The notes under the pieces were generated by a model. That model was not told where the DNA came from and did not search any database. It saw only the letters and a list, made by a program, of their open reading frames with translations. The position numbers and the translations under genes are program-made. 64,000 nucleotides of DNA from Knoellia subterranea KCTC 19937 (GTDB lineage Bacteria; Actinomycetota; Actinomycetes; Actinomycetales; Dermatophilaceae), in contig NZ_AVPK01000004.1 of assembly GCF_000768685.1 (NCBI RefSeq), positions 248,001 through 312,000 of the forward strand, written 5' to 3'. Shown in pieces: positions 1-64,000 of the stretch; within the stretch, counting starts at the first letter, position 1, and every line of letters starts with the position of its first letter.

Positions 1-1059
1 AAGCGCATCCTCCTGGTCGTCGCCGGACTCGAGCTCCTCACGATGTCGCTGGTCGCGACCCTGTCCCTGCTCGACATCACCCAGCTGTGGATGCTCGCCA
101 CTGTCGCCTTCGTCAACGGGATGGCGCTGGCGTTCTACTACCCGGCCTACACCGCGTGGCTGCCGGCGCTCGTCGAGGAGCGCGACCTCATGGCGGTCAA
201 TGGCTTCGAGGGCATGGTGCGTCCGACGATCGGGCAGGCGATCGGCCCCGCGGTCGCCGGTGCCGCGATCGCCGCTGCCAACCCGGGCACGGCCATCGTC
301 ATCGCCGCCACGTCCGTGCTCCTCGGGTTGCTTGCGCTCATGGCCGTGCCCGAGACGCCACTCCGACGCCAACTCGACGAAACCCACTCGGTGCATCCGA
401 TCAAGGCCGCGGCGATCGACGTGCGCGAGGGCTTCACCTACATGGTGCGGACCCCGTGGCTGCTCGCGACGTTGATCTTCGCGAGCCTGATGATCCTCGT
501 GATGATGGGCCCGTTCGAGGTGCTCGTCCCGTTCCTCATCAAGGATCGCCTCGGCGGTGGCCCGCGCGATCACGCCTGGGTGCTGGCCGCCTTCGGGATC
601 GGCGGTGCCGTCGGCTCGCTGATCATGGCCTCGCTGCCGATGCCGCGCCGCTACCTCACCTGGATGAACCTGTTGTGGGGTGTGGGCTCGCTTCCGCTCG
701 CCGTGATCGGGTATGCCGGTCACATCTGGATCGTGATCGCCGCCGCCTTCGTGCTGGGCACGACCTTCTCGGCACCGATGGTCATCTGGGGCACCCTCTT
801 GCAGCGCCGCGTTCCGCCCGCATTGGTCGGACGAGTCGCGAGCCTCGACTTCTTCGTCTCGATCTCGCTCATGCCGGTGTCGATGGCGATGGCCGGTCCG
901 GTGTCCGACGTCATTGGCATCCGGCCGACGTTCCTCATAGCGGGGGTGGTGCCGGGGGTCATCGCGATCATCGCGATCCTCTGGGCGCGACTTCCCGCCG
1001 ACGAGATCGCCCACCCGCTGCGCGACGACGAGCCGGATGTGATTGCCCCGGCCGTCTGA
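1..1059 (+). CDS. MFS exporter (DHA3/EntS-like), 5' end outside window
   Basis: The frame is open from the first base, so the N-terminus is missing; 352 codons remain. Alternating hydrophobic segments (about nine visible) and the loop with NGMALAFYYPAY, LPALVEERDL and IGPAVAG match the drug/siderophore exporter branch of the major facilitator superfamily, which uses the proton gradient to expel small hydrophobic compounds across the inner membrane. The substrate cannot be read from sequence. It ends 23 bp from a convergent IclR regulator. The family call is firm; a specific role is not. Confidence 0.85.
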   Translation, partial: KRILLVVAGLELLTMSLVATLSLLDITQLWMLATVAFVNGMALAFYYPAYTAWLPALVEERDLMAVNGFEGMVRPTIGQAIGPAVAGAAIAAANPGTAIVIAATSVLLGLLALMAVPETPLRRQLDETHSVHPIKAAAIDVREGFTYMVRTPWLLATLIFASLMILVMMGPFEVLVPFLIKDRLGGGPRDHAWVLAAFGIGGAVGSLIMASLPMPRRYLTWMNLLWGVGSLPLAVIGYAGHIWIVIAAAFVLGTTFSAPMVIWGTLLQRRVPPALVGRVASLDFFVSISLMPVSMAMAGPVSDVIGIRPTFLIAGVVPGVIAIIAILWARLPADEIAHPLRDDEPDVIAPAV

Positions 1060-1082
1060 GCGCGAAGGTCGCGTCGGACGGG

Positions 1083-1922
1083 TCAGGTCCCCGACGGCGA
1101 GCGCGGTTGCCGATGCAGCCGTGCAGACAGGTCGTCGGCGGAGCGACCCACGGCTGACACGATCCGGCCGAAGGTCGCGTCATCGACCAGGTCGGATCGG
1201 AAGGTGACCGCGACCGACGCCACGGGGTGCTCGCTGTGGTCGAGCACCGCGACGGCCACGGACTTGAGTCCACTCGTGATGTGACCGTCCTCCACGGCAT
1301 ACCCGCGTTGTCGCACGGCCTGGAGCAGCGAACGCAGCTCGGTCGTCGTCGTGGGCCCGTGACCGTCGCGCTGGACGAGGGCGTCGGCATGGGGGAAGAG
1401 CGCTCGCACCTGGGGCTGGGGCAGCGCCGCGAGGAGGGCCAGCCCGGTGGCCGTGAGTGTGGCCGGCAGGCGGACGCCAACGTCGGAGACGAGCACGGGC
1501 CCCCGCGGTGCGCGCTGCTCGATGACATAGAGGACGTCGCGTCCGTGCAACACGGCGAGGTGGGCGTTGTGTCCGGTGGAGTCGACGAGCCGGTCGAGGG
1601 TGCTTCGCGCGATCCGTTGCAGCGGCGCCTGTCGCTGATAGGCCGAACCCAGTTCGTATGCCGCGACGCCGAGTCCGAACCGCCGCTCCCCATCGAGGTG
1701 GGAGACGTAGCCGCGTTCCCTGAGGAGGCTGAGCAGGTGGTACGTGCTCGAGCGGGGAATCCCCAGTTCGCGCGCGACCGCGGCGGCGGGCAGGGGTTCT
1801 CCGCGGCCCGCCAGCAGTTCGAGGACGTCGAGTGCGTGCGCGGCGGCCCGGGCATTGCTCGGCGCGGTGCCGCGGCCGGGTCGCGTCCGCCCGCTATCCG
1901 CCGGCTCGTCAGATGCGGTCAT
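1083..1922 (-). CDS. IclR-family transcriptional regulator
   Basis: The protein has 279 residues from the ATG chosen here, the first start that precedes an IclR-type N-terminus. A winged helix-turn-helix lies at about residues 20-80 (ALDVLELLAGRGE, ELGIPRSSTYHLLSLL), followed by the GAF-like effector domain with LGSAYQRQ and GLKSVAVAVLD. IclR proteins bind small carbon metabolites and switch nearby catabolic operons. The start overlaps the end of the upstream MarR gene by 14 bp, so the two regulators are probably cotranscribed. No catabolic gene is directly adjacent; the hut genes about 6 kb away are a possible but unsupported target. Confidence 0.88.
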   Translation of the reverse strand: MTASDEPADSGRTRPGRGTAPSNARAAAHALDVLELLAGRGEPLPAAAVARELGIPRSSTYHLLSLLRERGYVSHLDGERRFGLGVAAYELGSAYQRQAPLQRIARSTLDRLVDSTGHNAHLAVLHGRDVLYVIEQRAPRGPVLVSDVGVRLPATLTATGLALLAALPQPQVRALFPHADALVQRDGHGPTTTTELRSLLQAVRQRGYAVEDGHITSGLKSVAVAVLDHSEHPVASVAVTFRSDLVDDATFGRIVSAVGRSADDLSARLHRQPRSPSGT

Positions 1923-2349
1923 CGAGCAACTGGGTGAGGATGCGCGTGAGCGCGTCGCGGTCACGCGCCGACAGGTCGGCGAAGTAGGCCTCGTGATCGG
2001 CCTTGCGGGCATCGTTGAGGTCGGTGAGGGTCGTGCGCCCCGCCGGAGTGAGCCGGACCTGGGTGGCGCGCCGGTCGGTGGGGTCGGGTTCGCGCACGAC
2101 GAATTCGCGCCGCTCGAGGGAGTCGACGACGTCGGTCACCGAGCGGGGTGCGATGCGCAGGTGCTGGGCGACCACTCCCAGGCGGGTCGGCTCGTGCTGG
2201 CCGATGACCCGGAGTGCCCGTGACTCGTGCGGCGTGATGCCCCACGGCTCGAGGCTCGCGGCGTGGTTGCGCCGCAGGCCACGCGCCACCTCCATGACGA
2301 GCTCCCCGAGCCCCGGCTCAACCCCCGACTTCTTGCCCTCTTGGGACAC
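1909..2349 (-). CDS. MarR-family transcriptional regulator
   Basis: The 146 residues contain a MarR winged helix core (LRVIGQHEPTRLGVVAQHLRI, then SVTDVVDSLERREFVVREPDPTDRRATQVRLT). Such dimers usually repress a neighbouring exporter and are released by small aromatic ligands. The divergent ABC exporter is the natural target. The GTG start taken here lies inside a dispersed inverted repeat, so the first nine residues (MSQEGKKSG) are repeat-encoded. An ATG 18 codons further in (MEVARGLRR) sits nearer the usual family N-terminus and may be the true start. Confidence 0.85.
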   Translation of the reverse strand: MSQEGKKSGVEPGLGELVMEVARGLRRNHAASLEPWGITPHESRALRVIGQHEPTRLGVVAQHLRIAPRSVTDVVDSLERREFVVREPDPTDRRATQVRLTPAGRTTLTDLNDARKADHEAYFADLSARDRDALTRILTQLLDDRI

Positions 2350-2399
2350 GACTCAGCCTCCTCCGTCGGCGCGTCGTGTCCCAAGAGGGCAAGCAGTCG
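2326..2399. repeat. Long inverted repeat, family copy A
   Basis: Two 27-nt arms (2326-2352 and 2373-2399) are complementary at 26 of 27 positions around a 20-nt loop. The arms begin CGACTTCTTGCCCTC and are almost identical to those at 55737-55811, and related to two further copies. It covers the 5' end of the MarR reading frame. Confidence 0.85.
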
Positions 2400-2420
2400 C
2401 ACGGTGAGGGCGGGCTGGGA

Positions 2421-2438
2421 GGTGGGCGGACGGCATAC
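2421..2438 (-). repeat. 18-mer repeat GTATGCCGTCCGCCCACC
   Basis: This is an exact copy of an 18-mer also present at 45473, 55417 and 60103, with one mismatch at 62274 and at 47894. It lies between divergent genes and ends in the GTATGCCG octamer that is over-represented across the window. Confidence 0.85.
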
Positions 2439-2474
2439 GGGAATAGTAGCGACGGATGCCCTGTTTGACTCATT

Positions 2475-2489
2475 GTGAGTTAGCCTCAC
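2475..2489. promoter_or_regulatory. Candidate operator, GTGAG-N5-CTCAC
   Basis: A perfect 5-bp dyad (GTGAG TTAGC CTCAC) lies 47 bp before the ABC exporter start in the divergent MarR/ABC region. It is a reasonable MarR operator. The central TTAGCCT resembles part of a DtxR/IdeR iron box, but only about 13 of 19 positions fit that consensus. Confidence 0.4.
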
Positions 2490-2535
2490 TAAAGGCGCTC
2501 ACCACAGACTTCAGCACCAACAGAAGGGAGAGCCC

Positions 2536-4422
2536 ATGACTGCCACGGCACATGAAGCTCCCAAGGATCACTCCTCCCGCCTCCCCGGCGGTCGAGGCAT
2601 GGGCGTCGGCGGCGGACGCGGCGGCGGGGGAGGGCCGATGAAGATCGACCCCAAGGACCGCGCCCAGCTCGAGCTCGCCCCGGTTCCCCTGAAGCGCGTC
2701 ACCGCGCTCTTCCGCGGCTTCGGCCGCCCCATCACCATCGTCACCGCGATCATCGTGGCGACCTCGGTGATCTCGATGGCCCAGCCGTTCCTCGTCCGCG
2801 AGATCGTCGACACGGCCATCCCGCAGCAGGACGTGCGCCTGCTCCTCCTCACCGTCGCCGCGATGGTCGCCGTCGCCGCGACGACCCAGCTCCTCGGCGT
2901 GGTGCAGACCTGGCTCTCCACCCGCGTCGGCCAGCGTGTCATGCACCGCCTGCGCACCGACCTCTTCGCGCACCTGCAACAGCAGTCGCTCGGCTTCTTC
3001 ACCCGCACCCGCGCTGGTGAGGTCCAGTCTCGACTCACCAACGACATCAACGGCATGCAGGGCGTCGTGACCACCACGGCCACAAGCATCGCGAGCAACC
3101 TCACGACCGCCGTCGCCACGTCGGTCGCGATGGTCGCGCTCTCCTGGCGGCTCAGCCTCCTCTCGCTCCTCGTCATCCCGCCGGCCGTGTGGATGACCCG
3201 TCGCGTCGCGCTCATCCGCCGCGAGGTCACCGCCCGCCAGCAGTCGCGCCGCGCCGACCTCAACGTCCAGATCGAGGAGGGCCTGTCGGTCTCCGGCGTA
3301 CGCCTCTCCAAGACCCTCGGCGCCGGCCGCCGTCACGCCGAGCGCTTCGCCACGACGTCCGAGGAACTCGTCGACCTCGAGCTCCGCTCCCAGCTCGCCG
3401 GTCGCTGGCGTATGGCGACGATGCAGATCATCTTCTCGGCGATCCCCGCGATGATCTATCTCATCGCCGGGCTGCCGGCGACCTCCGGCGGCATGACGAT
3501 CGGAACGCTCATCGCCTTCACCGGGCTCCAGGCCGGCATCTTCCGACCGCTCATGGGCCTGCTCAACGTCGGCGCGCAGTGGGTCTCGTCGATGGCGCTC
3601 TTCTCGCGTGTCTTCGAGTACCTCGACCTCATCCCCGACGTCGCCGCCCCGACCGCGCCCGTCGATCTCGACCCCGAGTGGGTCCGCGGCGAGGTGCGCT
3701 TCGAGGACGTCTCCTTCCGGTATGCCGGTGACGCCCCTCTCGCTCTCGACTCGATTTCCGCTGTGGTCCCGGCGGGTGGATCGCTCGCGCTCGTCGGTCA
3801 CACCGGCTCGGGCAAGTCGACGCTCGCCTCACTCGTGGCCCGGCTGCACGACCCGAGCTCTGGACGCGTGACGATCGATGGTGTCGACCTGCGCGACCTC
3901 GACCCCGAGGTGCTCGCCCGCATCGTCGGTGTCGTGTCGCAGGAGACCTACCTCGTGCACGCGTCCATCCGCGAGAACCTGCTGCTGGCGGCGCCCGACG
4001 CGACCGAGGTCGAGTTGTGGCAGGCGCTCGGCGCGGCCCAGGTGGCCGACCTCGTCGCCACGCTCCCGGAGGGTCTGGACACCGTCGTCGGCGCTCGCGG
4101 ACACCGCTTCTCCGGTGGTGAGCAGCAGCGCATCGCCATCGCCCGCACCATCCTGCGCAACCCGCGCGTGCTCGTCCTCGACGAGGCGACGAGTGCGCTC
4201 GACAACGACACCGAGCGGGCCGTGCAGAAGGCTCTCGACGAGCTCGTGAAGGGCCGTACGACGATCACCATCGCCCACCGGCTCTCGACCATCGAGGGCG
4301 CGGACGAGATCGCGGTCCTCGACCACGGCCGCATCATCGAGCGCGGCTCGCACCACGAACTCCTGGCCCTCGGCGGACGCTACGCGGACCTCTCCGGCGA
4401 GCGGCCGGCATACGCCGCCTGA
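2536..4422 (+). CDS. ABC exporter, fused membrane and ATPase domains
   Basis: The 628 residues form a half-transporter: a Gly-rich N-terminal tail (residues 15-35), six membrane segments at about 55-340 and a nucleotide-binding domain from about 390. Walker A is GHTGSGKST near 421, the signature FSGGEQQRIAIAR near 525 and Walker B VLVLDEATSALD near 546, with the H-loop AHRLST after it, so the ATPase looks intact. It probably works as a homodimer exporting lipids or drugs (MsbA/LmrA type). A strong ribosome site (AAGGGAGAG) supports the start. Its divergent partner is the MarR gene. Confidence 0.92.
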   Translation: MTATAHEAPKDHSSRLPGGRGMGVGGGRGGGGGPMKIDPKDRAQLELAPVPLKRVTALFRGFGRPITIVTAIIVATSVISMAQPFLVREIVDTAIPQQDVRLLLLTVAAMVAVAATTQLLGVVQTWLSTRVGQRVMHRLRTDLFAHLQQQSLGFFTRTRAGEVQSRLTNDINGMQGVVTTTATSIASNLTTAVATSVAMVALSWRLSLLSLLVIPPAVWMTRRVALIRREVTARQQSRRADLNVQIEEGLSVSGVRLSKTLGAGRRHAERFATTSEELVDLELRSQLAGRWRMATMQIIFSAIPAMIYLIAGLPATSGGMTIGTLIAFTGLQAGIFRPLMGLLNVGAQWVSSMALFSRVFEYLDLIPDVAAPTAPVDLDPEWVRGEVRFEDVSFRYAGDAPLALDSISAVVPAGGSLALVGHTGSGKSTLASLVARLHDPSSGRVTIDGVDLRDLDPEVLARIVGVVSQETYLVHASIRENLLLAAPDATEVELWQALGAAQVADLVATLPEGLDTVVGARGHRFSGGEQQRIAIARTILRNPRVLVLDEATSALDNDTERAVQKALDELVKGRTTITIAHRLSTIEGADEIAVLDHGRIIERGSHHELLALGGRYADLSGERPAYAA

Positions 4423-4426
4423 GGTT

Positions 4427-4669
4427 TCAGGAGCGCCGGCGGCTACGCACGGCGCGCTGCGACTGGGACGACAGGGCCGACAGGTCGCTCTGGTGGGACA
4501 GGGCCGATCCGCGGGACTGGTTCGACAGCACCGAGAACATGCTCATCGCCGAGCCGATGCTCCCGATCGAGAGGGCCGAGTCCACGCTGCCGATGGACAG
4601 GAACGAGTGCGACGAGCCGATCGACAGGACCGAGTTGTGGGAACGCCACGCGAGGATCGACCGGCCCAT
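4427..4669 (-). CDS. Small Ser-rich nonapeptide-repeat protein, function unknown
   Basis: The protein has 80 residues from the ATG chosen here. A perfect AGGAGG lies 8 nt before this ATG, whereas the upstream GTG at 4690 would put that Shine-Dalgarno inside the gene. Most of the protein is a 9-residue repeat with pattern S-(V/F/A)-(L/M)-S-x-(G/Q)-S-x-x: six copies plus a 6-residue partial (SVLSIGSSH, SFLSIGSVD, SALSIGSIG, SAMSMF, SVLSNQSRG, SALSHQSDL, SALSSQSQR), then a basic tail. The regular Leu/Ser spacing suggests a small beta-solenoid or surface-binding fibre; this is inference. An intrinsic terminator lies directly upstream. Confidence 0.6.
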   Translation of the reverse strand: MGRSILAWRSHNSVLSIGSSHSFLSIGSVDSALSIGSIGSAMSMFSVLSNQSRGSALSHQSDLSALSSQSQRAVRSRRRS

Positions 4670-4696
4670 CTCCCAAACCTCCTGTGCCACAACAAA

Positions 4697-4740
4697 ACTC
4701 GAGGTATGCCGGTCAGTCCAGTGACCGGTATACCTCGAGT
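4697..4740 (-). terminator. Intrinsic terminator of the MMPL gene
   Basis: A 19-bp stem with one mismatch (arms around 4697-4715 and 4722-4740, six-base loop) is followed, reading on the minus strand, by TTTTGTT. It begins 10 bp after the MMPL stop. One arm contains the GTATGCCG octamer. The Shine-Dalgarno of the next small gene starts about 14 nt beyond the stem. Confidence 0.8.
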
Positions 4741-7332: not shown

Positions 7333-7334
7333 GG

Positions 7335-8201: not shown

Positions 8202-8238
8202 GGTATGCCGTCCGCGTGCCTCGCGCGGACGGCATACC
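8202..8238. promoter_or_regulatory. Perfect 15-bp hairpin before hutH
   Basis: Arms GGTATGCCGTCCGCG (8202-8216) and its exact complement (8224-8238) flank a 7-nt loop. Both arms contain the GTATGCCG octamer. The stem ends one base before a GAGGTG ribosome site for hutH, so it could block translation, end leader transcription or bind a dimeric protein. Confidence 0.7.
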
Positions 8239-8255: not shown

Positions 8256-9821
8256 ATGACGGACACCGCCCCTTCGCAACAGTCGATCACTCTCGGCGAC
8301 GGACCCCTTCGCATCGACGACATCGTGCGGGTCGCCCGGCACGGAGCCCGGGTCGAGCTCAGCCCGGTCGCCCTGGACGCCGTGCGCGCGACGCGCGGCA
8401 CGATCGAAGGTCTCGCCAACGACACCGTCCCGCACTACGGCGTCTCGACCGGGTTCGGTGCGCTCGCGACCCGCCACATCCCCGTCGAACTGAGGGCCCA
8501 GTTGCAGCGCTCCCTCGTCCGCTCGCACGCCGCCGGCGCCGGCCCCGAGGTCGAGCGCGAAGTCGTGCGTGCCCTCATGCTCCTGCGCATCGCCACCCTG
8601 GCGACCGGTCGGACCGGTATCCGTCCCAAGACCCTCGAGACCTACCTCCAGATCCTCAATGCGGGGATCACGCCGGTCGTCCACGAGTACGGCTCGCTCG
8701 GCTGCTCCGGCGACCTCGCCCCGCTGTCGCACTGCGCGCTCGCCCTGATGGGTGAGGGGCTCGTGCGCAACGACGATGGCGAGGTCATGGACGCCGCCGA
8801 CGCCCTCGCGGCCGCGGGGATCACCCCCGTCGAGCTCGCCGAGAAGGAGGGGCTCGCCCTCATCAACGGCACCGACGGCATGCTCGGGATGCTCTGCCTC
8901 GCCATCACCGACCTCCGTCAGCTCGTCACGACGGCCGACATCTCGGCGGCCATGTCCGTTGAGGGCCTCATGGGTTCGGACGCTCCCTTTGCGGCTGATC
9001 TGCACGCCCTCCGGCCTCAGCCGGGCCAGGCGCGGTCGGCGGAGAACATGCGAAAGGTGTTGTCGGGCAGCCCCATTCGCGACTCGCACCGGGACAAGGA
9101 GTCGGACACACGCGTTCAGGACGCCTACTCCCTGCGCTGCGCACCGCAGGTCGCTGGAGGAGTGCGGGACACGATCGATCACGCCGCCCGCGTCGCCGAG
9201 TGGGAGCTCGCGTCGGCCATCGACAACCCGGTCGTCACGCTCGACGGCCGCGTGGAGAGCAACGGCAACTTCCACGGCGCGCCCGTGGCCTACGTCCTCG
9301 ACTTCCTCGCCATCGTGGCCGCCGACCTCGCGTCGATCTCGGAGCGCCGGACCGATCGCTTCCTCGACAAGGCGCGCAACCACGAGCTGCCGCCCTTCCT
9401 CGCCGACGACCCGGGCGTGGACTCGGGGCTGATGATCGCGCAGTACACCCAGGCCGCGATGGTCTCCGAGATGAAGCGCCTCGCCAACCCGGCCAGCGTC
9501 GATTCCATCCCGAGCAGCGCGATGCAGGAGGACCACGTGTCGATGGGCTGGTCGGCCGCCCGCAAGCTGCGCCGCTCCGTCGACGCCCTGACGCGCGTCG
9601 TCGCCATCGAACTCATCACCGCGGCTCGTGGCATCCAGCTGCGCGCCCCGCTCGAACCGGCACCCGCGACGGCTGCCGTCATCGCGGCCCTCGCGGAGTC
9701 CGGCAACGTCGCGCCCGGACCCGATCGCTTCCTCGCTCCCGACATCGAAGCGGCCTACGAAGCTGTGGTCGACGGCACCGTGGTGACCGCCGCCGAGACC
9801 GTCACCGGCCGCCTCAACTGA
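8256..9821 (+). CDS. hutH: Histidine ammonia-lyase
   Basis: This 521-residue enzyme removes ammonia from L-histidine to give urocanate, the first step of cytoplasmic histidine degradation. The motif [14 protein letters not shown] includes the residues that cyclise to the MIO cofactor; here they are Cys150-Ser151-Gly152 rather than the textbook Ala-Ser-Gly, a variant I recall from other actinobacterial histidases. The conserved [11 protein letters not shown] and the [11 protein letters not shown] region are present and the length is normal. hutU follows after 82 bp. GAGGTG about 10 nt upstream supports the start. Confidence 0.96.
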
Positions 9822-11731: not shown

Positions 11732-13792
11732 ATGAGCCGCACAACCGGGTCCGGCGACGCGCCCGCCCCCAGTAGCCCCGAGCAGATCCGCAACGTCGTG
11801 ATCGTCGGGCCGCCCGGCTCCGGCAAGTCCACGCTCTTCGAGCACCTCGTAGCAGCCCGGGTCGAGGGGAGGCGACCGAGAGGTGAGGAGCGTTCTGGTT
11901 CAACGGGACTCACCGCGGCGACCTTCGCCAGTGGCGAGGTGGTGGTGAACCTCGTCGACACACCGGGCAACCCCGACTTCGTCGGTGAGGTGCGAGCAGG
12001 GTTGAGGGCGGCAGATGCCGCCCTCTTCGTCATTTCGGGGGCGGACGGGGTCGACCAGGCGACGCAGATGCTGTGGCGAGAGTGCGCGGCGGTCGGTATG
12101 CCGCGGGCCATCGCGGTGACGCGGCTGGAACAGGCCCGCGCCGACTTCGCCGAGACGATCGCGACGTGTCGGCGGATGTTCGGGGACGCGCAGGCGCTCG
12201 CGGAGCCGGTGCAGCCGGGCGGCCCGGGGACGGAGGTCGAGGGGCTCGTCGACCTGCTCGCGCAGCGTGACGGCGACCTGCTCGAGGCGATCATCGAGCA
12301 GTCCGAGGACGAGGCGCTGCTCGAGCGCTACCTCGAGGGTGAGGAGGTCGACCTCGACACGGTGCGCGGCGACCTCCACAAGGCCGTCGGGACAGGGCGG
12401 TTCTTCCCCGCGCTGCCGACCCACGCGTTCCGTGGGGTCGGCATCGAGGAACTCCTCGACCTCATCGAGCAGGGCCTGCCCTCGCCCGTCGAGGCCTGGA
12501 TGCCGCGGGTGTTCCGGACGAACGGTGGGGAGTTCGGCGAGGTGACGTGTGACCCCGACGGGCCGCTCGTTGCCGAGGTCGTACGCACCACCACCGACCC
12601 GTTCGTGGGGCGACAGTCGCTCGTGCGCATCTTTTCGGGCACGCTCCGACCGGATGACGCCGTCCACGTCTCCGGTCACCTGAGCCAGTTCGCACAGGGC
12701 CGTGAGGGCTCTGCCGGCGACACCGGGTCAGGCGGCCACGCCGACCATGACGAGGACCTCGACCGGGTGGGCGCCCTCGGTGCGCCGCTGGGGGACGAGT
12801 TGCTCGCCAAGGGGTCCGCGATCGCCGGTGACCTCGTGCTCGTGAGCCGGCTCGCCGTCGCGGAGACGACGGACACGCTGTCCTCGCCAGCCCGGCCAGC
12901 GCTCGTCGAGCCGTGGCTCCTGCCCGAGCCGCTCCTGCCCGTCGCCATCCACGCGAAGAGCAAAGGCGACGAGGACAAGCTCGCCTCCGTGCTCCAGTCG
13001 CTCGTGTCCGAGGACGTGACGATGCGGCTCGACCTCAACGCCGAGACCCATCAGGTCGTCCTGTGGGCCATGGGCCCGGCCCACATCGACCTCCTCACGA
13101 CCGCACTGGAGGAGCGCTTCCACGTCCCGGTCGAGACCGAGACGGTGCGGACCGGGTTGCGCGAGACGTTCATCGCGGGGTGCGAGGCGCAAGGACGACT
13201 CGTCAAGCAGTCCGGCGGTCACGGTCAGTACGCCGTCTGCCGGCTCACGATCGAGCCGCTGGGCCGCGGCGAGGGCATCGAGTTCGTCGACAAGGTGGTG
13301 GGTGGGTCGGTGCCGCGCCAGTTCATCGCCTCGGTCGAGAAGGGTGTGCGCGCCCAACTGGAGAAGGGGCTGCTCGCCGGCTATCCCGCGGTCGACGTCC
13401 GGGTGACGCTCGTCGACGGCAAGGCCCACTCAGTCGACTCGTCGGACATGGCCTTCCAGACTGCTGCCGGCCTGGCCCTGCGCGAGGCCGCGAACGAGAC
13501 GACCGTTGCGATGCTCGAACCCATCGACGCGGTCGACATCGACGTGGCCGACGAGTCGGTGGGCTCGACTCTCGCCGACCTCCGCGGTCGCCGCGGCCAG
13601 GTGCACGGCACCGAACCGTCACAGCACGACGGCCGCACCGTCATCCACGCCGAGATCCCCGCGATCGAGCTGTCCCGTTACCCCATCGACCTGCGCTCGG
13701 TCTCGCACGGGACGGGGACATTCACGCGGACGTTCTCCCGCTACGACTACCTGCCGCCCCAGCGTGCCAAGGAGCTCACGCAGGGTCGGTGA
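11732..13792 (+). CDS. EF-G-like GTPase (EF-G2 type) with altered G motifs
   Basis: The 686 residues follow the order of elongation factor G: G domain, domains II to V. This matches the actinobacterial EF-G2 group (homologue of M. tuberculosis Rv0120c), whose role is not settled. The GTP site is unusual: G1 is GPPGSGKST (26-34) instead of AHVDHGKTT, G3 is DTPGN (76-80) instead of DTPGH, and the G4 position reads TRLE (about 130-133) instead of NKxD. The loss of the catalytic His and guanine-specifying Asn-Lys-Asp implies weak or changed nucleotide hydrolysis. A short Asp/His-rich insert lies near residue 330. GGTGAGGGG precedes the ATG. Confidence 0.85.
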   Translation: MSRTTGSGDAPAPSSPEQIRNVVIVGPPGSGKSTLFEHLVAARVEGRRPRGEERSGSTGLTAATFASGEVVVNLVDTPGNPDFVGEVRAGLRAADAALFVISGADGVDQATQMLWRECAAVGMPRAIAVTRLEQARADFAETIATCRRMFGDAQALAEPVQPGGPGTEVEGLVDLLAQRDGDLLEAIIEQSEDEALLERYLEGEEVDLDTVRGDLHKAVGTGRFFPALPTHAFRGVGIEELLDLIEQGLPSPVEAWMPRVFRTNGGEFGEVTCDPDGPLVAEVVRTTTDPFVGRQSLVRIFSGTLRPDDAVHVSGHLSQFAQGREGSAGDTGSGGHADHDEDLDRVGALGAPLGDELLAKGSAIAGDLVLVSRLAVAETTDTLSSPARPALVEPWLLPEPLLPVAIHAKSKGDEDKLASVLQSLVSEDVTMRLDLNAETHQVVLWAMGPAHIDLLTTALEERFHVPVETETVRTGLRETFIAGCEAQGRLVKQSGGHGQYAVCRLTIEPLGRGEGIEFVDKVVGGSVPRQFIASVEKGVRAQLEKGLLAGYPAVDVRVTLVDGKAHSVDSSDMAFQTAAGLALREAANETTVAMLEPIDAVDIDVADESVGSTLADLRGRRGQVHGTEPSQHDGRTVIHAEIPAIELSRYPIDLRSVSHGTGTFTRTFSRYDYLPPQRAKELTQGR

Positions 13793-14267: not shown

Positions 14268-14342
14268 GTCACGACTCTAGGGCGATTCGTCCGTTCCCGG
14301 CTCGCGTCGGCCTATGGTCGCCAGAGCAAGGGGAGGTATGCC

Positions 14343-15293
14343 GTGAAGCAGCTTGCGATGTCACCCGCCGGACTGGGGGCGGTCCGGTTCCACATCTCGC
14401 CGGTCAACCAGGTGGCCGGCCTGTTGCGCCTCGCCGTGTCCGGTGCATGGCACCCGCAGCACTCACGGTGGGCGGCCACGGTGCGCCCGCTGCTCGGCCA
14501 CCCACGGCTGGCCCTGCTCGCCGAACTCGTCCCTGCCGGGGGCGTCGGATCGCTGCCCATCGTGCATCTCCGCCCGGATTCCGGGGCGACGACGTGGGAC
14601 GAGGAGCTCGCGGCGATCGAGGCGATGTCCGAGGCAGTCCTGCGCGCTGACCTCGACCGGTCCGGTTCGCCGCGCCCCCTTGCACGGCGCAGCCTCGAGC
14701 GTGGCACCCTCGGCCCAGACGTTGCCGCAGCACTGGCGTACCTCTGGCAGGAGGTCATGGCCGACGAGTGGGCCCGCTTCGAGCGGGGCCTGCGCGCCGA
14801 GGTCGCGCGGTGCTCCGACGTGGCCGCGGCTCGCGGGATAGGTGCCGCCCTGGGTGAGCTGCACCCTCGGGTGCACTGGGTCGCCGGCGCCGATGAGGTG
14901 AGCGTCGTCGTCGACAAGCCGATCGATGGGCGCCACGAGGTCGGCAGTGAAGGGCTCGTCCTCATGCCCAACGTGTTCCTCTGGGACGAGCCGCTCGTCA
15001 CGGTCGAGGCGCGGACGGAAGGCCTGCTCTATCCCTGCCGCACCGACGAGGCGGCCGGGCGCGAGCCTTCCCGCTCCCGCCCGACCGCCAGTCCCATGTC
15101 CCGGCTCATCGGCACGACACGCGCCCGGGTGCTCGACGCCCTCGCCGTCCCCGTGACCACGACGGGGCTGGCCAGTCAGTTGGGGCTTGCGCCATCGACG
15201 GTCTCCACGCACCTCACGGTGCTGCACTCTGCCGGGCTCGTCGTGCGCCGCAGGGACGGCCAGCGCGTCCTCTACGCACGGACCGCACCCTGA
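14343..15293 (+). CDS. ArsR-type regulator with long N-terminal domain
   Basis: The 316-residue protein has a large N-terminal region of the type found in actinobacterial ArsR-like regulators (DUF5937-like, from memory) and a C-terminal winged helix (about 250-315: TTTGLASQLGLAPSTVSTHL, then AGLVVRRRDGQRVLY). No metal-binding CxC motif is seen, so the signal is unknown. The GTG start has an excellent AAGGGGAGG six bases upstream; the GTATGCCG octamer sits exactly between the Shine-Dalgarno and the start codon. Confidence 0.82.
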   Translation: MKQLAMSPAGLGAVRFHISPVNQVAGLLRLAVSGAWHPQHSRWAATVRPLLGHPRLALLAELVPAGGVGSLPIVHLRPDSGATTWDEELAAIEAMSEAVLRADLDRSGSPRPLARRSLERGTLGPDVAAALAYLWQEVMADEWARFERGLRAEVARCSDVAAARGIGAALGELHPRVHWVAGADEVSVVVDKPIDGRHEVGSEGLVLMPNVFLWDEPLVTVEARTEGLLYPCRTDEAAGREPSRSRPTASPMSRLIGTTRARVLDALAVPVTTTGLASQLGLAPSTVSTHLTVLHSAGLVVRRRDGQRVLYARTAP

Positions 15294-15320
15294 CGGCATA
15301 CACGGTGGTTCGTTCGAGCG

Positions 15321-15815: not shown

Positions 15816-15974
15816 GGGAGTTCTCCTTCGTGTGGGCGATGCTGATGGGGAGACCTCACCAGTGGTGGTCGTCGGGTCGCCAACGTTTCGGCCGTCACCG
15901 AATCGTCTGGCATTTCAGACAGGTATGCCGTCCCCTTGCCTCCCTGCGGACCGTCCGGGGTGTGGAATGGCGGG

Positions 15975-33806: not shown

Positions 33807-33940
33807 TACTCCTCGCCCCTGTCGGTCCCGCCAGAGCGTTCGCGCTTGGGGTCAGCTGTGGTCCTTTGCCGCCTCGGGCCAGCGGATCTCCGTCGCCGGA
33901 CGTCTCGATCGAGAGGCATGTATGCCGTGTGCCGAGATCG

Positions 33941-45469: not shown

Positions 45470-46158
45470 TCCGTATGCCGTCCGCCCACCGTTTCGACGT
45501 CGGTGACGTCACGCTCGCAGTCCGGATGTGGGAGTGCGCCCAACCGCGTCACCCCGACGTCGTCCTGCTCCACGGCACGGGACTCACCGCCACGGACTGG
45601 GACGACGTCGCCGCTGACCTGAGTCGCGACCGCACCGTCCATGCCGTCGACCTGCGCGGCCATGGTGAGTCCGACTGGCCGGGCACCTACTCGATCGAGC
45701 TCATGGCCGACGACGTGGCGTCGCTCGTGTCTCAGCTGCCGAATCCCGTTGACCTCGTGGGTCATTCACTCGGAGGGCTCGTCGCGTGCCGTGTCCCGGC
45801 CACGTCGCCAAACGTGCGACGATTCGTCCTCGAGGACGTCGGTCTGATGCGCGCCCGCACCCCGTCCATGCCGAGCCGGCCGCACGGCGAGCTCAACTTC
45901 GACTGGGCGATGGTCGAGCGGGTGCGACCCCAGGTGGACACCCCTGCCGCCGACTGGACGGAAGTCCTCTCCGCGATCTCGGCGCCTGTTCTGGCGATCA
46001 GCGGCGGGCCGCCGAGCTTCGTCCCTGAGGAGTGGGTGGACGACCTCGTCACCACAGTGGGCGCGGCCCGCAAGGTGACCATCCCCGTCGGGCACGAGAT
46101 CCACGCAGGCGACCCTGCGGCATACCTCCACGTCGTCCGGGACCACCTCGACACGTGA
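45466..46158 (+). CDS. Alpha/beta hydrolase
   Basis: The 230-residue hydrolase has the oxyanion HGTGLTATDWDDVA, DLRGHGESDWPG, nucleophile elbow GHSLGGLVA (Ser about 104) and final His in GHEIHAGDP. Substrate unknown. Two starts are possible: GTG 45466, overlapping the previous stop, or ATG 45475, which lies inside an exact copy of the 18-mer repeat (45473-45490). Confidence 0.8.
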   Translation: MIRMPSAHRFDVGDVTLAVRMWECAQPRHPDVVLLHGTGLTATDWDDVAADLSRDRTVHAVDLRGHGESDWPGTYSIELMADDVASLVSQLPNPVDLVGHSLGGLVACRVPATSPNVRRFVLEDVGLMRARTPSMPSRPHGELNFDWAMVERVRPQVDTPAADWTEVLSAISAPVLAISGGPPSFVPEEWVDDLVTTVGAARKVTIPVGHEIHAGDPAAYLHVVRDHLDT

Positions 46159-47535: not shown

Positions 47536-48142
47536 CGTAGTCCGGGTTCTCGAAGGAGATCCGCAGTTCGACGAACGTCGCGTCCTTGGGGACGGCGATC
47601 TCGGGCGATGCCGACCATTCGCCGGGTCGGGGGAGCTCGTCCTCGGGCAGGCTGCCACGCGCGTCGTTCTTCAGCACTGGAGCGCTCGGCCCCGGCGTCT
47701 TCTCGGGCACGCACACCGTGATGTTCGGCCCGATGCCGTCGAACAGGTGCCCCACGCGGTACTCGCGCCCACGGTCGTCGACCAGCGTGAGGTTGCAGTG
47801 CTTGAGCGGCACCGATGGGTCCGCACGGAAGTCGAGATTGACGGTCCGCGCGACCATCCCGTCGCGAAGTGCGAAGTCGTCATAACGCGTCTCGTATGCC
47901 GTCCGCTCACCTCCGAGCCCGACGAGGCGCACGCTGTACTTGCGGCTGAAATCGCCGTGGGCATCGGAGGTGCGCTCGGACACACTCACCCATTCGCGTG
48001 CATCGCCGCTCGCGATCTCGTGGTGCTGGCCCGACTGATACCAGAAGACCGGCACGCGGAACCCGTTGCCGGCGAGCATGGCGGCGATCGCGACCGGTGT
48101 TGCGGCGATCCACCAGCGGCTCGGACGTCGTGCCGGGCTCAT
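47513..48142 (-). CDS. Membrane-anchored extracytoplasmic protein, unknown (third of three)
   Basis: The 209 residues begin with a basic N-terminus and one membrane helix (WWIAATPVAIAAMLAGNGF). A beta-rich domain follows with two Cys (KHCNLTLVDDRGREYRVG, ITVCVPEKTP), ending FVELRISFENPDYVTLRLPR. Fold and position resemble the two genes upstream. ATGA overlap with the previous gene. Function unknown. Confidence 0.72.
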   Translation of the reverse strand: MSPARRPSRWWIAATPVAIAAMLAGNGFRVPVFWYQSGQHHEIASGDAREWVSVSERTSDAHGDFSRKYSVRLVGLGGERTAYETRYDDFALRDGMVARTVNLDFRADPSVPLKHCNLTLVDDRGREYRVGHLFDGIGPNITVCVPEKTPGPSAPVLKNDARGSLPEDELPRPGEWSASPEIAVPKDATFVELRISFENPDYVTLRLPR

Positions 48143-50611: not shown

Positions 50612-50727
50612 GCGGTCGTCGTGCGGTGCGATTCACGCAATCCAGACGGTGTATGCCGTCCGCTCGCCCCGCGACGTATCAGCCGCGCGCCCGCGTGCCC
50701 GGATGAGGCTTGCGAGCCGCGCCCGGG

Positions 50728-50993: not shown

Positions 50994-51024
50994 CGAATTT
51001 GCCACCCGGCATACGCCGTTCTAA

Positions 51025-52981: not shown

Positions 52982-53667
52982 CCGACCCTCGCAACCCCGA
53001 ATCCGGTATGCCGGGTGCGGACGAGGTCTTCGACGGCGAGATCGTGGACGATCCGGTCGAGGACGAGGCAGTCTCTGAGACTGACGCGGTCACCGACGAG
53101 GCCGACGACGCGATCAACACCGAGTCGGCCAACGACGGTGAGGAGGTGGCTCCGGCCGGCAACACGGCCGGGGCCACCGCCCCCGCGGCGGGCACCGGCA
53201 CCGGGGACGCCACCGAGCACCCCGACACCGCGCTCGCGGCCCAGCGGCTCGAGGACCTCCAGCGCCTCAACGCGGAGTACGTCAACTACAAGCGTCGCGT
53301 CGACCGGGACCGTGCCGCGGTCCAGGAGCGCGCGGTGCGTGACGTTCTCGAGACGGTGCTGCCGGTCCTCGACGACATCCAGCTGGCGCGCGACCACGGT
53401 GACCTCACCGACGGTCCGTTCGCGGCCATCGCCGACAAGCTCGAGGGCACCCTCGGCAAGTTCGGCCTGGCGCGTTTCGGTTCCGTGGGCGAGGCCTTCG
53501 ACCCGATGCAGCACGAGGCGCTCATGCACGCCGCGTGGGACGCCTCCAACCCGGAGCTGCCGAGCGACGCGACGGCCACGACGGTCGTCCAGGTGCTCCA
53601 GCCCGGATACCGTTCCGGTGACCACGTGATCCGCCCCGCGCGGGTCGCGGTCGCAGACCCGGAGTGA
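52978..53667 (+). CDS. grpE: Nucleotide exchange factor GrpE
   Basis: The 229-residue protein has a long acidic, low-complexity N-terminus (1-75). The GrpE coiled coil follows ([24 protein letters not shown]) and then the beta domain ([33 protein letters not shown]). It releases ADP from DnaK. The GTG start overlaps the dnaK stop. Confidence 0.95.
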
Positions 53668-53685: not shown

Positions 53686-53704
53686 GCCGTTGTCCCACAA
53701 CGGC
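53686..53704 (+). other. Small hairpin between grpE and dnaJ
   Basis: GCCGTTGT-CCC-ACAACGGC is a perfect 8-bp stem in the 62-bp grpE-dnaJ gap and overlaps a GTATGCCG copy. It may set mRNA stability or chaperone ratios. Confidence 0.55.
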
Positions 53705-53729
53705 ATACGATGCCTGAGAGGAGGCGCTG

Positions 53730-54758
53730 ATGGCTCAGCAGGACTGGTTCGAGAAGGACTTCTACGCGATCCTCGGCGTCTCCAAGGACGCCGACGCGGC
53801 CGCGATCAAGAAGGCGTACCGCAAGCTCGCCCGCACGCATCACCCGGACAAGAACCCGGGTGATGCGGCGGCCGAGCAGAAGTTCAAGGACATCGGCGAG
53901 GCCAACTCCGTCCTGTCCGACCCCAAGCAGCGTGAGGAGTACGACGCGGTCCGCCAGATGGCGCACGGCGGAGCGCGATTCACGGCGGGCGGGCACGGCG
54001 GTGCGGGTGGCTTCGACGACATCTTCAGTGCCTTCGGTGGCGGCGGTGGCGGCTCGCGCGTGCGCTTCGACACCGGGGGCGGCTCGCCCTACGGCGGCGG
54101 CGGAGAGGACATCAACGACCTCCTGGCGCAGATGTTCGGCGGTGCCGCTGGCGGTGCCCGCGGTGGACAGGCGGGGTATGCCGGTTATGGCGCCCCCCGC
54201 GGTCCGCGCAAGGGTGCCGACGTCCAGGCCACGACGACGCTCCCGTTCCGGGACGCGGTCGAGGGCTCGACCGTGACCCTCCGCACGGCCGAGGGGCGCA
54301 CGATCAACGCGCGCATCCCGGCGGGGGTCAAGGACGGCCAGAAGATTCGTCTGCGTGGCAAGGGCCAGCCCGGCGAACCCGGAGCGGCTGCCGGCGACCT
54401 CATGCTCACCGTGTCCGTGGAGAAGCACCCGGTCTTCGGCCGGGACGGCGACAACCTCACGATCGAGCTGCCGGTGACGTTCGCCGAGGCCGCACTTGGT
54501 GCGACCGTGGCCGTCCCCACTCTCGATGGCTCGAGCGTCAAGGTCCGCATCGCACCCGGCACTCCGTCCGGGCGCGTGCTGCGCCTCAAGGGTCGGGGCG
54601 TCCCGGGCAAGTCGGCCGCCGGCGACCTGCTCGCCAAGGTGCAGGTCATCGTTCCGGAAGCGTTGTCCGACAAGGCTCGTGAGGCCGTCGAGGTCCTGCA
54701 GGCCGAGGCCGACGGGTTCGACCCGCGGGCCGAGCTCGCCGACCGGGCACGGGCCTGA
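53730..54758 (+). CDS. dnaJ: DnaJ-type co-chaperone without zinc finger
   Basis: The 342 residues have a J domain (about 8-72, with HPD in THHPDKNPG), a long Gly/Phe linker (about 85-145) and the C-terminal peptide-binding domains. The four CxxCxGxG zinc repeats of a classical DnaJ are absent, so it is a type II (CbpA-like) protein. Gene position in the operon still marks it as the main DnaK partner here. GAGGAGG precedes the ATG. Confidence 0.93.
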   Translation: MAQQDWFEKDFYAILGVSKDADAAAIKKAYRKLARTHHPDKNPGDAAAEQKFKDIGEANSVLSDPKQREEYDAVRQMAHGGARFTAGGHGGAGGFDDIFSAFGGGGGGSRVRFDTGGGSPYGGGGEDINDLLAQMFGGAAGGARGGQAGYAGYGAPRGPRKGADVQATTTLPFRDAVEGSTVTLRTAEGRTINARIPAGVKDGQKIRLRGKGQPGEPGAAAGDLMLTVSVEKHPVFGRDGDNLTIELPVTFAEAALGATVAVPTLDGSSVKVRIAPGTPSGRVLRLKGRGVPGKSAAGDLLAKVQVIVPEALSDKAREAVEVLQAEADGFDPRAELADRARA

Positions 54759-55416: not shown

Positions 55417-55434
55417 GGTGGGCGGACGGCATAC
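55417..55434 (-). repeat. 18-mer repeat GTATGCCGTCCGCCCACC
   Basis: An exact copy ending 9 bp before the start codon of the RraB-like gene, in the position where a promoter -10 or ribosome site would be expected. Confidence 0.85.
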
Positions 55435-58825: not shown

Positions 58826-58911
58826 CGAGTTCGACTGCAGCACAACTGAATACGCACAAAGGTGACGTCACCGCCCCGGGTCCGTCACGGCATACGAAAG
58901 AAAGAGACGAC

Positions 58912-60102: not shown

Positions 60103-60120
60103 GTATGCCGTCCGCCCACC
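60103..60120 (+). repeat. 18-mer repeat GTATGCCGTCCGCCCACC
   Basis: An exact copy between the sugar-operon terminator and gluconokinase, 40 bp before the gntK start. Confidence 0.85.
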
Positions 60121-60708: not shown

Positions 60709-60728
60709 ACCGTGGGACCCGCCGCCTG

Positions 60729-61764: not shown

Positions 61765-61781
61765 TCTTGGTGATCGTTCGG

Positions 61782-62273: not shown

Positions 62274-62291
62274 GGTGGGCGGGCGGCATAC
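62274..62291 (-). repeat. 18-mer repeat with one mismatch
   Basis: GGTGGGCGGGCGGCATAC, one base away from the exact repeat, ends 9 bp before the GTG start of the second SGNH gene, the same spacing as at the RraB-like gene. Confidence 0.8.
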
Positions 62292-62300
62292 CGTGCGCTC

Positions 62301-63116
62301 GTGCCCAGGTTCGTCGCGCTCGGCGACTCACTCACCGAAGGCGTCGGCGACCCGCATCCGGCCTGGCCCAACGGGCTCCGCGGGTGGGCCGAACTCGTGG
62401 CCGCCCGGCTCGCGGCGACGGATCCGACGACCGAGTACGCGAACCTCGCGCTGCGCGCCAAGACCGCCTGGGACGTCGCGCAGGAGCAGGTCCCGGCCGC
62501 GCTCGAGATGAAGCCCGACATCGTGACGATCTGGGCCGGCGGCAACGACATCCTGCGGCCGCGACTCCACCTCGACCGGGTCCTCACGCCCATCGACGAG
62601 GCGCTCGCCCAACTCGCGGTGACGACCACGACCCTCATCGTCTTCACGGGCTTCGAGATCAGTGGCTCGCCGTTCCTCGGGCCGCTGCGGGCCAGGGTGC
62701 GGGAGCTCAACAGCAACCTTCGCGAGATCGCCCATCACCGGGGTGCCGTTGTCGCCGATGTCTCGCCCCGGAACGAGTGGCGGGACCGACGGCTGTGGGC
62801 CGGCGACCGCGTGCACCCCTCGCCGCTGGGCCACGAGCGCCTCGCCGCCCAGGTCGGCACGCTGCTCGGACTGGCACCGCAGCCGGCCCCGCCCGTCCTC
62901 GGCCCGCCGCAGCCCCCGCGCCGTGGACGCGTCATCGCGGACGAGTTCGAGTGGTGGCGGGACCACGCCGCGCCGCACATCGCCCGGTGGGCAACGGGAG
63001 CGTCCAGACGTGAGCTCGTCACGCCCAAGTGGACGGTTCCGGTCCGGCCCGCGGCGGCCTTCCCGTGGTTCGACGTCGGCAACGATCTGGCTGTGAGTTC
63101 TCTGCCCTCGGCGTGA
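62301..63116 (+). CDS. SGNH/GDSL hydrolase (paralogue 2)
   Basis: The 271-residue protein has LGDSLTEGVGDP, LRGWAELVAARLA, WAGGNDIL and DRVHPSPLGHERLA, giving an intact Ser/Gly/Asn/His set. The C-terminal extension ends TPKWTVPVRPAAA, parallel to paralogue 1. No signal peptide. GTG start with no Shine-Dalgarno; the repeat occupies the leader. Substrate unknown. Confidence 0.88.
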   Translation: MPRFVALGDSLTEGVGDPHPAWPNGLRGWAELVAARLAATDPTTEYANLALRAKTAWDVAQEQVPAALEMKPDIVTIWAGGNDILRPRLHLDRVLTPIDEALAQLAVTTTTLIVFTGFEISGSPFLGPLRARVRELNSNLREIAHHRGAVVADVSPRNEWRDRRLWAGDRVHPSPLGHERLAAQVGTLLGLAPQPAPPVLGPPQPPRRGRVIADEFEWWRDHAAPHIARWATGASRRELVTPKWTVPVRPAAAFPWFDVGNDLAVSSLPSA

Positions 63117-63146
63117 ACCCGCCCTCCCGGCGGCATGATGTGAGTC

Positions 63147-64000
63147 GTGCCCATCCACCATGACGGCGACAGTGCCCGTCGCGACGACGACGCGGACCAC
63201 GAGTTCACGTACGAGTCCGGCGACCAGGATTACGACGACCAGGACGACGACGACAACGACCGGGACGACGACTACGACGAGTGGGACACGCGGGCCCCGC
63301 GCATCCACGGCGGTGGCGGCGGTGGGTCAGGGCGCTACGTCGGCCTCACCGCACTGAGCACCCTCCTCCCCGGTGCCGGTCTCATCCCCACTCGACGTCG
63401 CGGCCTGGGCCTGGTCCTGTTCCTCGGTGCCCTGCTCCTGGGGGCCCTCGCCCTCTTCTATGCGTGGCGCAAGGGCTTCGTCGTGGCCGCGCTCGATCTC
63501 GCGGTGCGCCCCGGTCTCCTCATGGGATTGCTCGTCGCGACGATTGTCGGGGCGCTGCTGTGGTGCTTCGGCATCCTCACGACGGCCCGCGAGACGACAC
63601 CCGGTGGCCCGGGCAGGGGTTGGCGCGCTCTCTTCGCGGCCATCTGCTGCGCCGTGATCGTCGCTCCGGCAGCGACGGCGGTCCGCTACCTCACGATCCA
63701 GCACGACGTCATCACGGTCCTCACCGGCAATGGCAACAACGACGACGTCGAGGCGAACGCGTGGGCCGACCAGCCGCGCGTCAACATCCTGCTGCTCGGG
63801 TCCGACGCCGGTGACGACCGGATCGGCGTGCGCACCGACTCGATGATGGTGGCGAGCATCGACACCGAGTCGGGTGACACCGTGCTCTTCAGCCTGCCGC
63901 GCAACCTCGAGCACGCGCCCATTCCCTCGTCGAACCCGCTGAGCAAGCTCTATCCCAACGGCTACGACTGCGGCGACGAGTGCCTGCTCAACGGCATCTG
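63147..64000 (+). CDS. LytR-CpsA-Psr (LCP) family protein, 3' end outside window
   Basis: The frame is open from a GTG to the window edge (284 codons). It starts with a strongly acidic, Asp/Tyr-rich cytoplasmic segment (about 10-50). About four hydrophobic helices follow, then the LCP domain: VNILLLGSDAGDDRIGVRTDSMMVASID, then FSLPRNLEHAPIP, with the conserved Arg and Asp residues that bind pyrophosphate-lipid substrates. LCP enzymes transfer glycopolymers such as teichoic acid or arabinogalactan to peptidoglycan outside the membrane. Confidence 0.87.
   Translation, partial: MPIHHDGDSARRDDDADHEFTYESGDQDYDDQDDDDNDRDDDYDEWDTRAPRIHGGGGGGSGRYVGLTALSTLLPGAGLIPTRRRGLGLVLFLGALLLGALALFYAWRKGFVVAALDLAVRPGLLMGLLVATIVGALLWCFGILTTARETTPGGPGRGWRALFAAICCAVIVAPAATAVRYLTIQHDVITVLTGNGNNDDVEANAWADQPRVNILLLGSDAGDDRIGVRTDSMMVASIDTESGDTVLFSLPRNLEHAPIPSSNPLSKLYPNGYDCGDECLLNGI

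Follow-up and report, generated by a model that had tools for sequence, protein, structure and literature searches.

In the literature searched, uptake sequences have been described from the Neisseriaceae and Pasteurellaceae only, both of them Gram-negative. A PilT retraction ATPase is usual in the bacteria known to carry such sequences. The DNA uptake sequence (DUS) of the Neisseriaceae comes in dialects (PMC3630211), and an excess of mismatched forms has been reported for the uptake words of both Haemophilus and Neisseria (PMC1939737). The core of the uptake signal sequence (USS) of Haemophilus influenzae occurs 1,471 times in 1.83 Mb (PMC1939737), and for the USS of Pasteurellaceae hairpin pairs and even spacing are reported as well (PMC1852404, PMC1939737). 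A dense octamer of another kind is the cyanobacterial HIP1 (highly iterated palindrome 1), which is linked to methylases and has alternate words in some relatives (PMC4390886). In Micrococcus luteus, transformation requires Flp pili and ComEC, and the main text of the paper reporting this does without the term "uptake sequence" (PMC4322843). Here we compare these systems with the octamer GTATGCCG (opposite-strand form CGGCATAC; copies are pooled from both strands) of Knoellia subterranea KCTC 19937, starting from a 64-kb window, that is, the whole stretch of DNA presented here, on contig C29 of its draft genome (the source genome, G000; 3,566,056 bp in 33 contigs).

We read GTATGCCG as the putative core of an uptake signal by which members of an Actinobacteria family recognise their own DNA, with a probability of roughly two in three. 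It is similar to the Pasteurellaceae USS in its short core and its density (PMC1939737) and in its hairpin pairs and even spacing, but its pairs come without a terminator T-run. Compared with the DUS of the Neisseriaceae (PMC3630211), the word is a different one, the host is a GC-rich monoderm actinobacterium, and there is no PilT over the cut-off in the source genome and no excess of one-mismatch words. HIP1 is alike in its density and in having other words take its place in certain relatives, but it is a palindrome (PMC4390886), and GTATGCCG reads differently on the opposite strand. In an uptake system of this kind, a surface or cell-wall competence protein would bind word-bearing DNA better than other DNA. 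By analogy with Micrococcus luteus, which belongs to another family, this receptor might feed ComEA and ComEC via a Tad/Flp pilus, and the imported fragments would recombine into the chromosome. Alleles carrying the word would then be copied in more often, so that copies would accumulate and stay at fixed places. A literature search, limited to the best 9 to 20 papers per query and with subscription papers and preprints outside its scope, turned up no description of an actinobacterial word of this kind, and GTATGCCG/CGGCATAC as a whole word appeared in one paper of the literature searched, a Ralstonia study of variable number tandem repeats. As far as this search shows, an uptake sequence with dialects is unreported in Gram-positives.

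An earlier note on the window, made from its sequence alone, had counted 27 GTATGCCG and 20 CGGCATAC. An exhaustive recount gave exactly these numbers, against 1.25 in all expected from an order-2 Markov model. The whole genome holds 1,233 GTATGCCG and 1,211 CGGCATAC, in sum 2,444 copies or one per 1.46 kb, compared with 22 + 32 = 54 for the reversed, uncomplemented control word, and in being a short, non-palindromic word with more than 1,000 copies per genome it resembles known uptake sequences. In a 464-kb sample (the window and 20 further stretches of the source genome) we found 316 copies against 5.5, 7.2, 3.7 and 3.3 expected from Markov models of orders 1-4 with motif copies masked, a 44-97-fold excess. 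The earlier note had proposed such a comparison with a Markov background, where an excess no greater than that of similarly composed octamers would have spoken against a functional site. That outcome was not obtained, as GTATGCCG ranks first among 619 octamers of the same composition with at least 20 occurrences, ranks 2 and 3 being words that overlap it. Among all 7,281 strand-merged octamers with at least 20 occurrences, only ACGGCATA, which also overlaps GTATGCCG, exceeds what the order-2 model predicts by a larger factor. The 24 one-mismatch words pooled amount to 337 occurrences against 298 expected, or 1.13-fold, and beyond a few copies only CTATGCCG (21 against 5.5) and GTAGGCCG (42 against 19.3) clearly stand out. 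Because GTATGCCG tops its composition class and its one-mismatch words barely exceed expectation, the signal is a single sharp octamer.

This lack of an excess of mismatched forms is at odds with known uptake sequences and would suit a methylase. The main rival explanation is a HIP1-like, methylation-linked word, in which an orphan methyltransferase would act on GTATGCCG, copies would accumulate by repair bias or through regulation, and variants would arise by changes of specificity. We regard it as unlikely. The sharp core fits the all-or-none specificity of an enzyme, but GTATGCCG is not palindromic, it would be unusual for a methylase to have an asymmetric 8-bp site with every base specified, and such an enzyme has no need of the 20-bp intergenic consensus and the hairpin pairs seen in Knoellia. 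HIP1 is likewise dense, and its alternate words have matching methylases (PMC4390886).

The earlier note had seen no strong strand bias, and this holds for the whole genome, with its nearly equal totals. In the 464-kb sample, divided into 24 bins of at most 20 kb each, no bin is more uneven than 4 vs 9. On the first 320 kb of contig C1 (G000:C1:1-320000, L009-L024), the strands carry 94 and 105 copies, compared with 3 and 113 for the control word GGGGGAG in the same DNA. The absence of replication polarity is a trait shared with uptake sequences. A polar recombination or segregation signal such as Chi, KOPS (FtsK orienting polar sequences) or AIMS (architecture imparting sequences) would also be a dense octamer, but because the word shows no marked polarity, either in the bins or genome-wide (1,233/1,211), such signals are excluded for practical purposes. 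As an observation in its own right, GGGGGAG/CTCCCCC is strongly strand-polar on C1 and, at 33 vs 6 or stronger, in eight other sample sets, which makes it a candidate for a family-wide signal akin to KOPS, Chi or AIMS.

Copies lie both in genes and between genes, as the earlier note had said, but the intergenic density is three times the coding one. With genes called by a simple codon-usage gene finder, the 464-kb sample splits into 403 kb of coding DNA with 213 copies (0.53 per kb) and 60.6 kb of intergenic DNA with 95 (1.57 per kb); 8 more straddle a gene edge. Coding copies favour reading frames that spell Tyr-Ala or Ala-Tyr, which might suggest a by-product of composition, of codon use or of a decayed repeat family. 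Shuffling of synonymous codons, however, leaves only 10-20 of the 213 coding copies (mean 15.5 in ten trials), so that the protein sequence cannot explain them. Together with the denser intergenic copies, the conservation of third codon positions (see below) and the fact that the copies were not seen to share any unit longer than about 20 bp, this makes a by-product hardly credible.

The 95 intergenic copies share a longer consensus of about 20 bp, GGTATGCCGTCCGCtCaCCtc, which is weaker in coding copies; in both groups A is rare at the base preceding the core and likewise at positions 9, 10 and 13. The same or a similar extension is found in intergenic copies of the congeners G076 (n=30) and G078 (n=22). 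Likewise, the USS core has a longer, weaker surrounding consensus, its flanks being AT-rich, while the flank here is TCCGCTCACCTC. Between genes of the source genome, convergent pairs of copies 12-60 bp apart number 10, compared with a random mean of 1.5 and a maximum of 7 in 1,000 trials, and divergent pairs number 3 against 1.5 expected. Such inverted pairs between genes are again a trait of uptake sequences. The stems of the convergent pairs extend by 3-9 bp inward and 1-12 bp outward, and these long intergenic stems might point to a transcription-associated element, a terminator or processing site that is abundant by chance. This is very improbable given that most copies are single, that genes fully enclose 213 of the 316, on both strands (117 sense, 96 antisense), and that gaps between convergent genes are the poorest in copies (1.09 per kb, against 1.73 in divergent and 2.24 in tandem gaps), with no T-runs behind the hairpins.

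For spacing, pairs less than 120 bp apart were merged, giving 291 gaps that were compared with 2,000 random sets. When the largest gap is removed in observed and random sets alike, the coefficient of variation (CV) is 0.73 vs 0.90, with none of the 2,000 sets as low; gaps of more than 4 kb number 10 against 23.2 expected, none of the 2,000 sets having as few, even with the largest gap included. GTATGCCG is evenly spaced in the source genome outside one island. This copy-free stretch of 15,133 bp (G000:C1:209842-224975, L019-L020) has a GC content of 0.62. Among the 4 genes called there, Pfam identifies a glycosyltransferase, a UDP-glucose/GDP-mannose dehydrogenase and a protein of polysaccharide biosynthesis, so it is probably an island. 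Phage capsid genes were matched in 12 of 70 genomes searched. In the three of these regions that were read, all from other word-bearing genomes, 1, 2 and 8 copies were counted in the 16 kb around the capsid gene, irrespective of prophage borders, compared with 6.8, 7.7 and 14.8 predicted from genome density.

Conservation between related genomes, another check proposed in the earlier note, was assessed in syntenic stretches of three congeners with 80-81% DNA identity to the source genome. The octamer is retained at 67/84, 60/84 and 29/36 alignable places (71-81%), compared with 27-29% for the other octamers that contain three A/T. When octamers are ranked by conservation, counting those with 20 or more places, it comes out at 1/1,268, 3/1,160 and 1/204, and the two words ahead of it in the second comparison, ATGCCGTG and ACGGCATA, both share most bases with it. 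Coding copies are retained at 50/62, 38/55 and 24/29 places and the remaining copies at 17/22, 22/29 and 5/7. Moreover, third codon positions within the word are conserved in 168/183, 137/162 and 82/86 cases (0.92, 0.85, 0.95), against 0.63-0.65 outside it. Either selection or restoration by recombination thus maintains the word beyond protein-coding demands, and a decayed repeat is excluded because the copies are conserved in place.

According to the NCBI taxonomy, Knoellia belongs to the Intrasporangiaceae, a group named Dermatophilaceae in GTDB; published abstracts on close relatives use the latter name too. Of 186 genomes of this family, 109 are word-rich, defined as more than 330 copies (341 to 4,724), and 77 have 330 or fewer; the nine genomes of the genus itself carry 1,971 to 3,277. 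In loci of 22 kb each we counted 22 copies in Phycicoccus elongatus (L105) and 18 in Tetrasphaera (L113). Among the families counted the word is restricted to this one, as no more than 167 copies occur in any of 183 genomes from 18 other families, mostly within threefold of the reversed-word control. Abrupt breaks are found within genera: G113 has 50 copies vs 394 to 1,901 in 30 others, G008 (89% complete) 37 vs 1,251 to 1,660, G083 19 next to 3,681 and 1,062 in its neighbours G084 and G085, and G034 and G035 have 361 and 288, with 1,217 and 1,189 in their neighbours G036 and G037.

When octamers were scanned without bias in samples of 16 word-poor genomes, the highest-ranking word of G178 proved to be GGATGCCG, a variant one base away from GTATGCCG (117 copies in 94 kb vs 7.4 expected, 15.8-fold), whose core is sharp there. 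Genome-wide it reaches 4,480 copies in G034, 3,949 in G178, 3,838 in G018, 3,816 in G017 and 3,619 in G035, five relatives that are poor in GTATGCCG, while G036 and G037 carry both words (2,195 GGATGCCG with 1,217 GTATGCCG, and 2,099 with 1,189, respectively). G158 has 1,336 copies, and counts in the other 178 genomes run from 241 to 1,239. These two-word genomes and the variant in related taxa resemble the dialects of known uptake sequences. Like GTATGCCG, GGATGCCG is unpolarised (99/100 in G178, 105/103 in G034), denser between genes than in them (3.48 vs 0.86 per kb in G178, 1.97 vs 1.23 in G034) and 5.6-5.9-fold over codon shuffling in both genomes; its spacing CV in G178, taken without a random control, is 0.80. 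At the comEC locus of G036, 2 of 5 fully aligned GGATGCCG sites are conserved in G034. A 38-row ComEC tree (a single gene, with several named rows labelled from 12-22 kb loci only) shows GGATGCCG at two separate places, well-supported branches forcing at least two changes, and the word-free state requires at least four changes, each of which may be a gain or a loss. Word-bearing and word-free states have changed repeatedly, GGATGCCG has taken over from GTATGCCG at two or more points in the tree, and we suspect that the word-free changes are losses.

These distributions also bear on a further rival, a binding site for a nucleoid or chromosome-architecture protein that would act in compaction or segregation. 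Even spacing outside one island, conservation in place and the absence of strand polarity would all be compatible with such a site. Two words in sister species would, however, be unexpected for an essential site, as would at least four changes to or from the word-free state and the absence from a polysaccharide island, and we consider this explanation improbable.

As to the uptake machinery, in the source genome a ComEA-like gene (SLBB and HHH_3 domains) adjoins a ComEC gene (Competence domain; Pfam) whose product has 77% identity, in the best segment, to ComEC of Knoellia remsis; genes for the DNA-uptake channel, as expected for an uptake-sequence bacterium, are therefore at hand. A Tad/Flp locus was read in the congener G078 rather than in the source genome and comprises two Flp pilins, TadE, a TadG-like protein just below the Pfam cut-off, RcpC, a ParA-like protein, a T2SSE ATPase and two T2SSF proteins. 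Micrococcus luteus likewise has ComEA, ComEC and a Tad/Flp locus (PMC4322843). ComEC was matched in 180 of the 186 family genomes. BLAST with the proteins of the source genome placed ComEA next to ComEC in 18 of 20 loci read; the exceptions are the word-rich L065, with no ComEA called, and the word-poor L075, with no ComEC match assigned. Since the genes adjoin in word-rich and word-poor loci, gene order fails as a discriminator, and ComEC presence was likewise rejected as a partner of the word. PilT rose above the cut-off in just two of the 186 genomes and was rejected too; in place of the type IV pilus with PilT, a usual trait of uptake-sequence bacteria, the congener G078 has its Tad/Flp locus. 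Because neither ComEC nor PilT tracks the word, its reader is not pinpointed by them. PilT-type ATPases over the cut-off are those of G085 and G180 (L049, L050), and matches were also seen in G182 and G050 (L051, L052).

In addition to the lack of an excess of mismatched forms, several observations weigh against an uptake signal. ComEC is present in word-rich and word-poor genomes alike, and the six ComEC-less genomes (G016, G051, G121, G128, G168, G181) all bear the word with 341 to 1,485 copies, although four of the six are less than 90% complete and the other two, G128 and G168 (93 and 95%), are in many contigs. The source genome is not among the two with PilT over the cut-off, and its convergent-pair hairpins, although long-stemmed, lack following T-runs. 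With all gaps retained, the CV of spacing is 0.87 and not below chance (230 of 2,000 random sets as low), because of the single 15,133-bp gap; without a random control, it is 0.99 in the congener G076 and 1.34 for GGATGCCG in G034. The intergenic excess in G076 is only 0.80 vs 0.49 per kb coding, and in samples beyond Knoellia (Phycicoccus and other genera) the 20-bp extension is weak, at 4.5 and 4.1 of 12 matches vs 6.9 in the source genome. In 94 kb of G178, GGATGCCG forms 2 convergent pairs against 1.8 expected, and 5 divergent ones. A site-for-site switch was not seen, as none of three fully aligned GTATGCCG sites of G036 is GGATGCCG in G034 (comEC locus only). Finally, the literature search found no paper on transformation in this family among its best-ranked matches.

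On the other side, sister variants, two-word genomes, state changes, hairpins, even spacing and a core with flank make the match with uptake sequences. With polar signals and decayed repeats set aside, what remains is a word read by a protein, and in the case of uptake its reader would be a receptor of competent cells that makes word-bearing DNA enter more readily. Since an excess of mismatched forms and, in the source genome, PilT over the cut-off were looked for and not found, we describe GTATGCCG as working like a DUS and do not file it as a member of that class. Among the four candidates of the earlier note, the DNA-uptake signal has the majority of the tests on its side, and a methylase target stays on as the main rival. 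A chromosome-organising site, if polar like KOPS, Chi or AIMS, did not survive the comparison of the unpolarised word with the one-stranded GGGGGAG, nor did relics of a repeat family, given conserved places at 80% identity, even spacing and an invariant unit of only 8 bp. The consensus of about 20 bp, the hairpin pairs and the variant words in relatives go beyond what that note had seen.

In its wider form, the uptake reading would make this a third independent origin of uptake sequences and the first in Gram-positives, spread across the Dermatophilaceae and using a Tad/Flp pilus with a receptor, with dialects, two-word species and repeated losses. We lean slightly towards this wider version. 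If true, a third case in a monoderm phylum and with a different pilus would provide an independent test of molecular drive by a biased receptor versus a mate-recognition tag, with 186 genomes, several state changes, two placements of the variant word and living intermediates as test material. Further, it would point to natural competence in the polyphosphate-accumulating wastewater bacteria of the family and suggest a transformation route for them.

Other words were abundant in word-poor members. GTACGCCG reaches 4,185 copies in G088, 3,903 in G089 and 2,618 in G003, with others following, but was not counted as a dialect, being sparser between genes than in genes (0.29 vs 0.90 per kb in G089, 0.13 vs 1.01 in G003, 0.59 vs 0.72 in G015) and having a loose sixth base. 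GTACGGCG, the top octamer of the G083 sample, is denser between genes (1.43 vs 0.54 per kb), and no hairpins of it were seen in that sample. GGACGCCG was not counted either, as it is weak and nearly confined to genes in G185. None of the top eight octamers in the samples of G001, G092, G021, G053, G154 and G113 lies within one or two bases of GTATGCCG; the G184 sample has one near word, CGGCAAGC, with 6 copies, the samples of G184 and G096 being only 14 kb. GTACGNCG words, with a loose sixth base, are over-represented in G083, G015, G003 and G089 (L039-L043, L185-L192, L197-L200), mainly in coding DNA except in G083. In a 100-kb sample of G053 (L029-L033), words ending in TGCCCG recur (AACTGCCCG, ATTTGCCCG, AATTGCCCG); they leave the top list when counted per 1-kb bin and are probably local repeats.

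Within the window, exact matches to the octamer were placed on predicted gene calls, with strands given for GTATGCCG. Two intergenic hairpins stand out. One, at 8203-8237, consists of two exact convergent copies (8203-8210, +; 8230-8237, -) with a stem extended by TCCGCG, and an aromatic amino-acid lyase gene (8256-9821) starts just past it. The other, recognised by eye at 4698-4739, combines the motif at 4704-4711 (+) with an inverted arm in which one base is changed (GGTATACC). Single intergenic copies with the extended consensus occur at 2431-2438 (-) and 55427-55434 (-), both with TCCGCCCACCTC, at 50651-50658 (+; TCCGCTCGCC), 60103-60110 (+; TCCGCCCACCTT) and 62284-62291 (-; CCCGCCCACCTC), and in partly extended form at 15923-15930 (+). 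Further intergenic copies are located at 15294-15301 (-), 33920-33927 (+), 51007-51014 (-), 53701-53708 (-) and 58888-58895 (-). At gene edges, 14336-14343 (+) lies before and touches the predicted start of gene 14343-15293, while 45473-45480 (+; extended consensus TCCGCCCACC) and 53006-53013 (+) lie across the starts of predicted genes 45475-46158 and 53008-53667.

The remaining copies are in genes. Several genes carry more than one: 1083-1922 has copies at 1295-1302 (-) and 1656-1663 (+), the ABC transporter gene 2599-4422 at 3720-3727 (+) and 4406-4413 (-), and the multicopper oxidase gene 26745-28283 at 27545-27552 (+), 27998-28005 (+) and 28269-28276 (-). Likewise, gene 32137-33348 contains 32295-32302 (+), 32894-32901 (-) and 33295-33302 (+), gene 37112-38017 contains 37335-37342 (-) and 37438-37445 (+), and gene 42977-44809 contains 43345-43352 (-) and 43660-43667 (+). 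In the first half of the window, plus-strand copies are found at 711-718 (gene 43-1059), 12096-12103 (elongation factor G-like gene 11732-13792), 17455-17462 (gene 17201-18532), 21806-21813 (gene 21228-21944), 24787-24794 (gene 24266-25525) and 28543-28550 (gene 28316-29158), and minus-strand ones at 17003-17010 (gene 15960-17204), 20780-20787 (predicted gene 20664-20930), 22568-22575 (gene 21946-24210) and 31126-31133 (gene 31061-32140). Further on, they are located at 39645-39652 (+; gene 39230-39664), 40302-40309 (-; gene 39964-40986), 42845-42852 (+; gene 41900-42946), 46118-46125 (-; gene 45475-46158) and 54176-54183 (+; gene 53730-54758), and the copy at 47894-47901 (+) in predicted gene 47513-48079 shows the extended consensus TCCGCTCACCTC.

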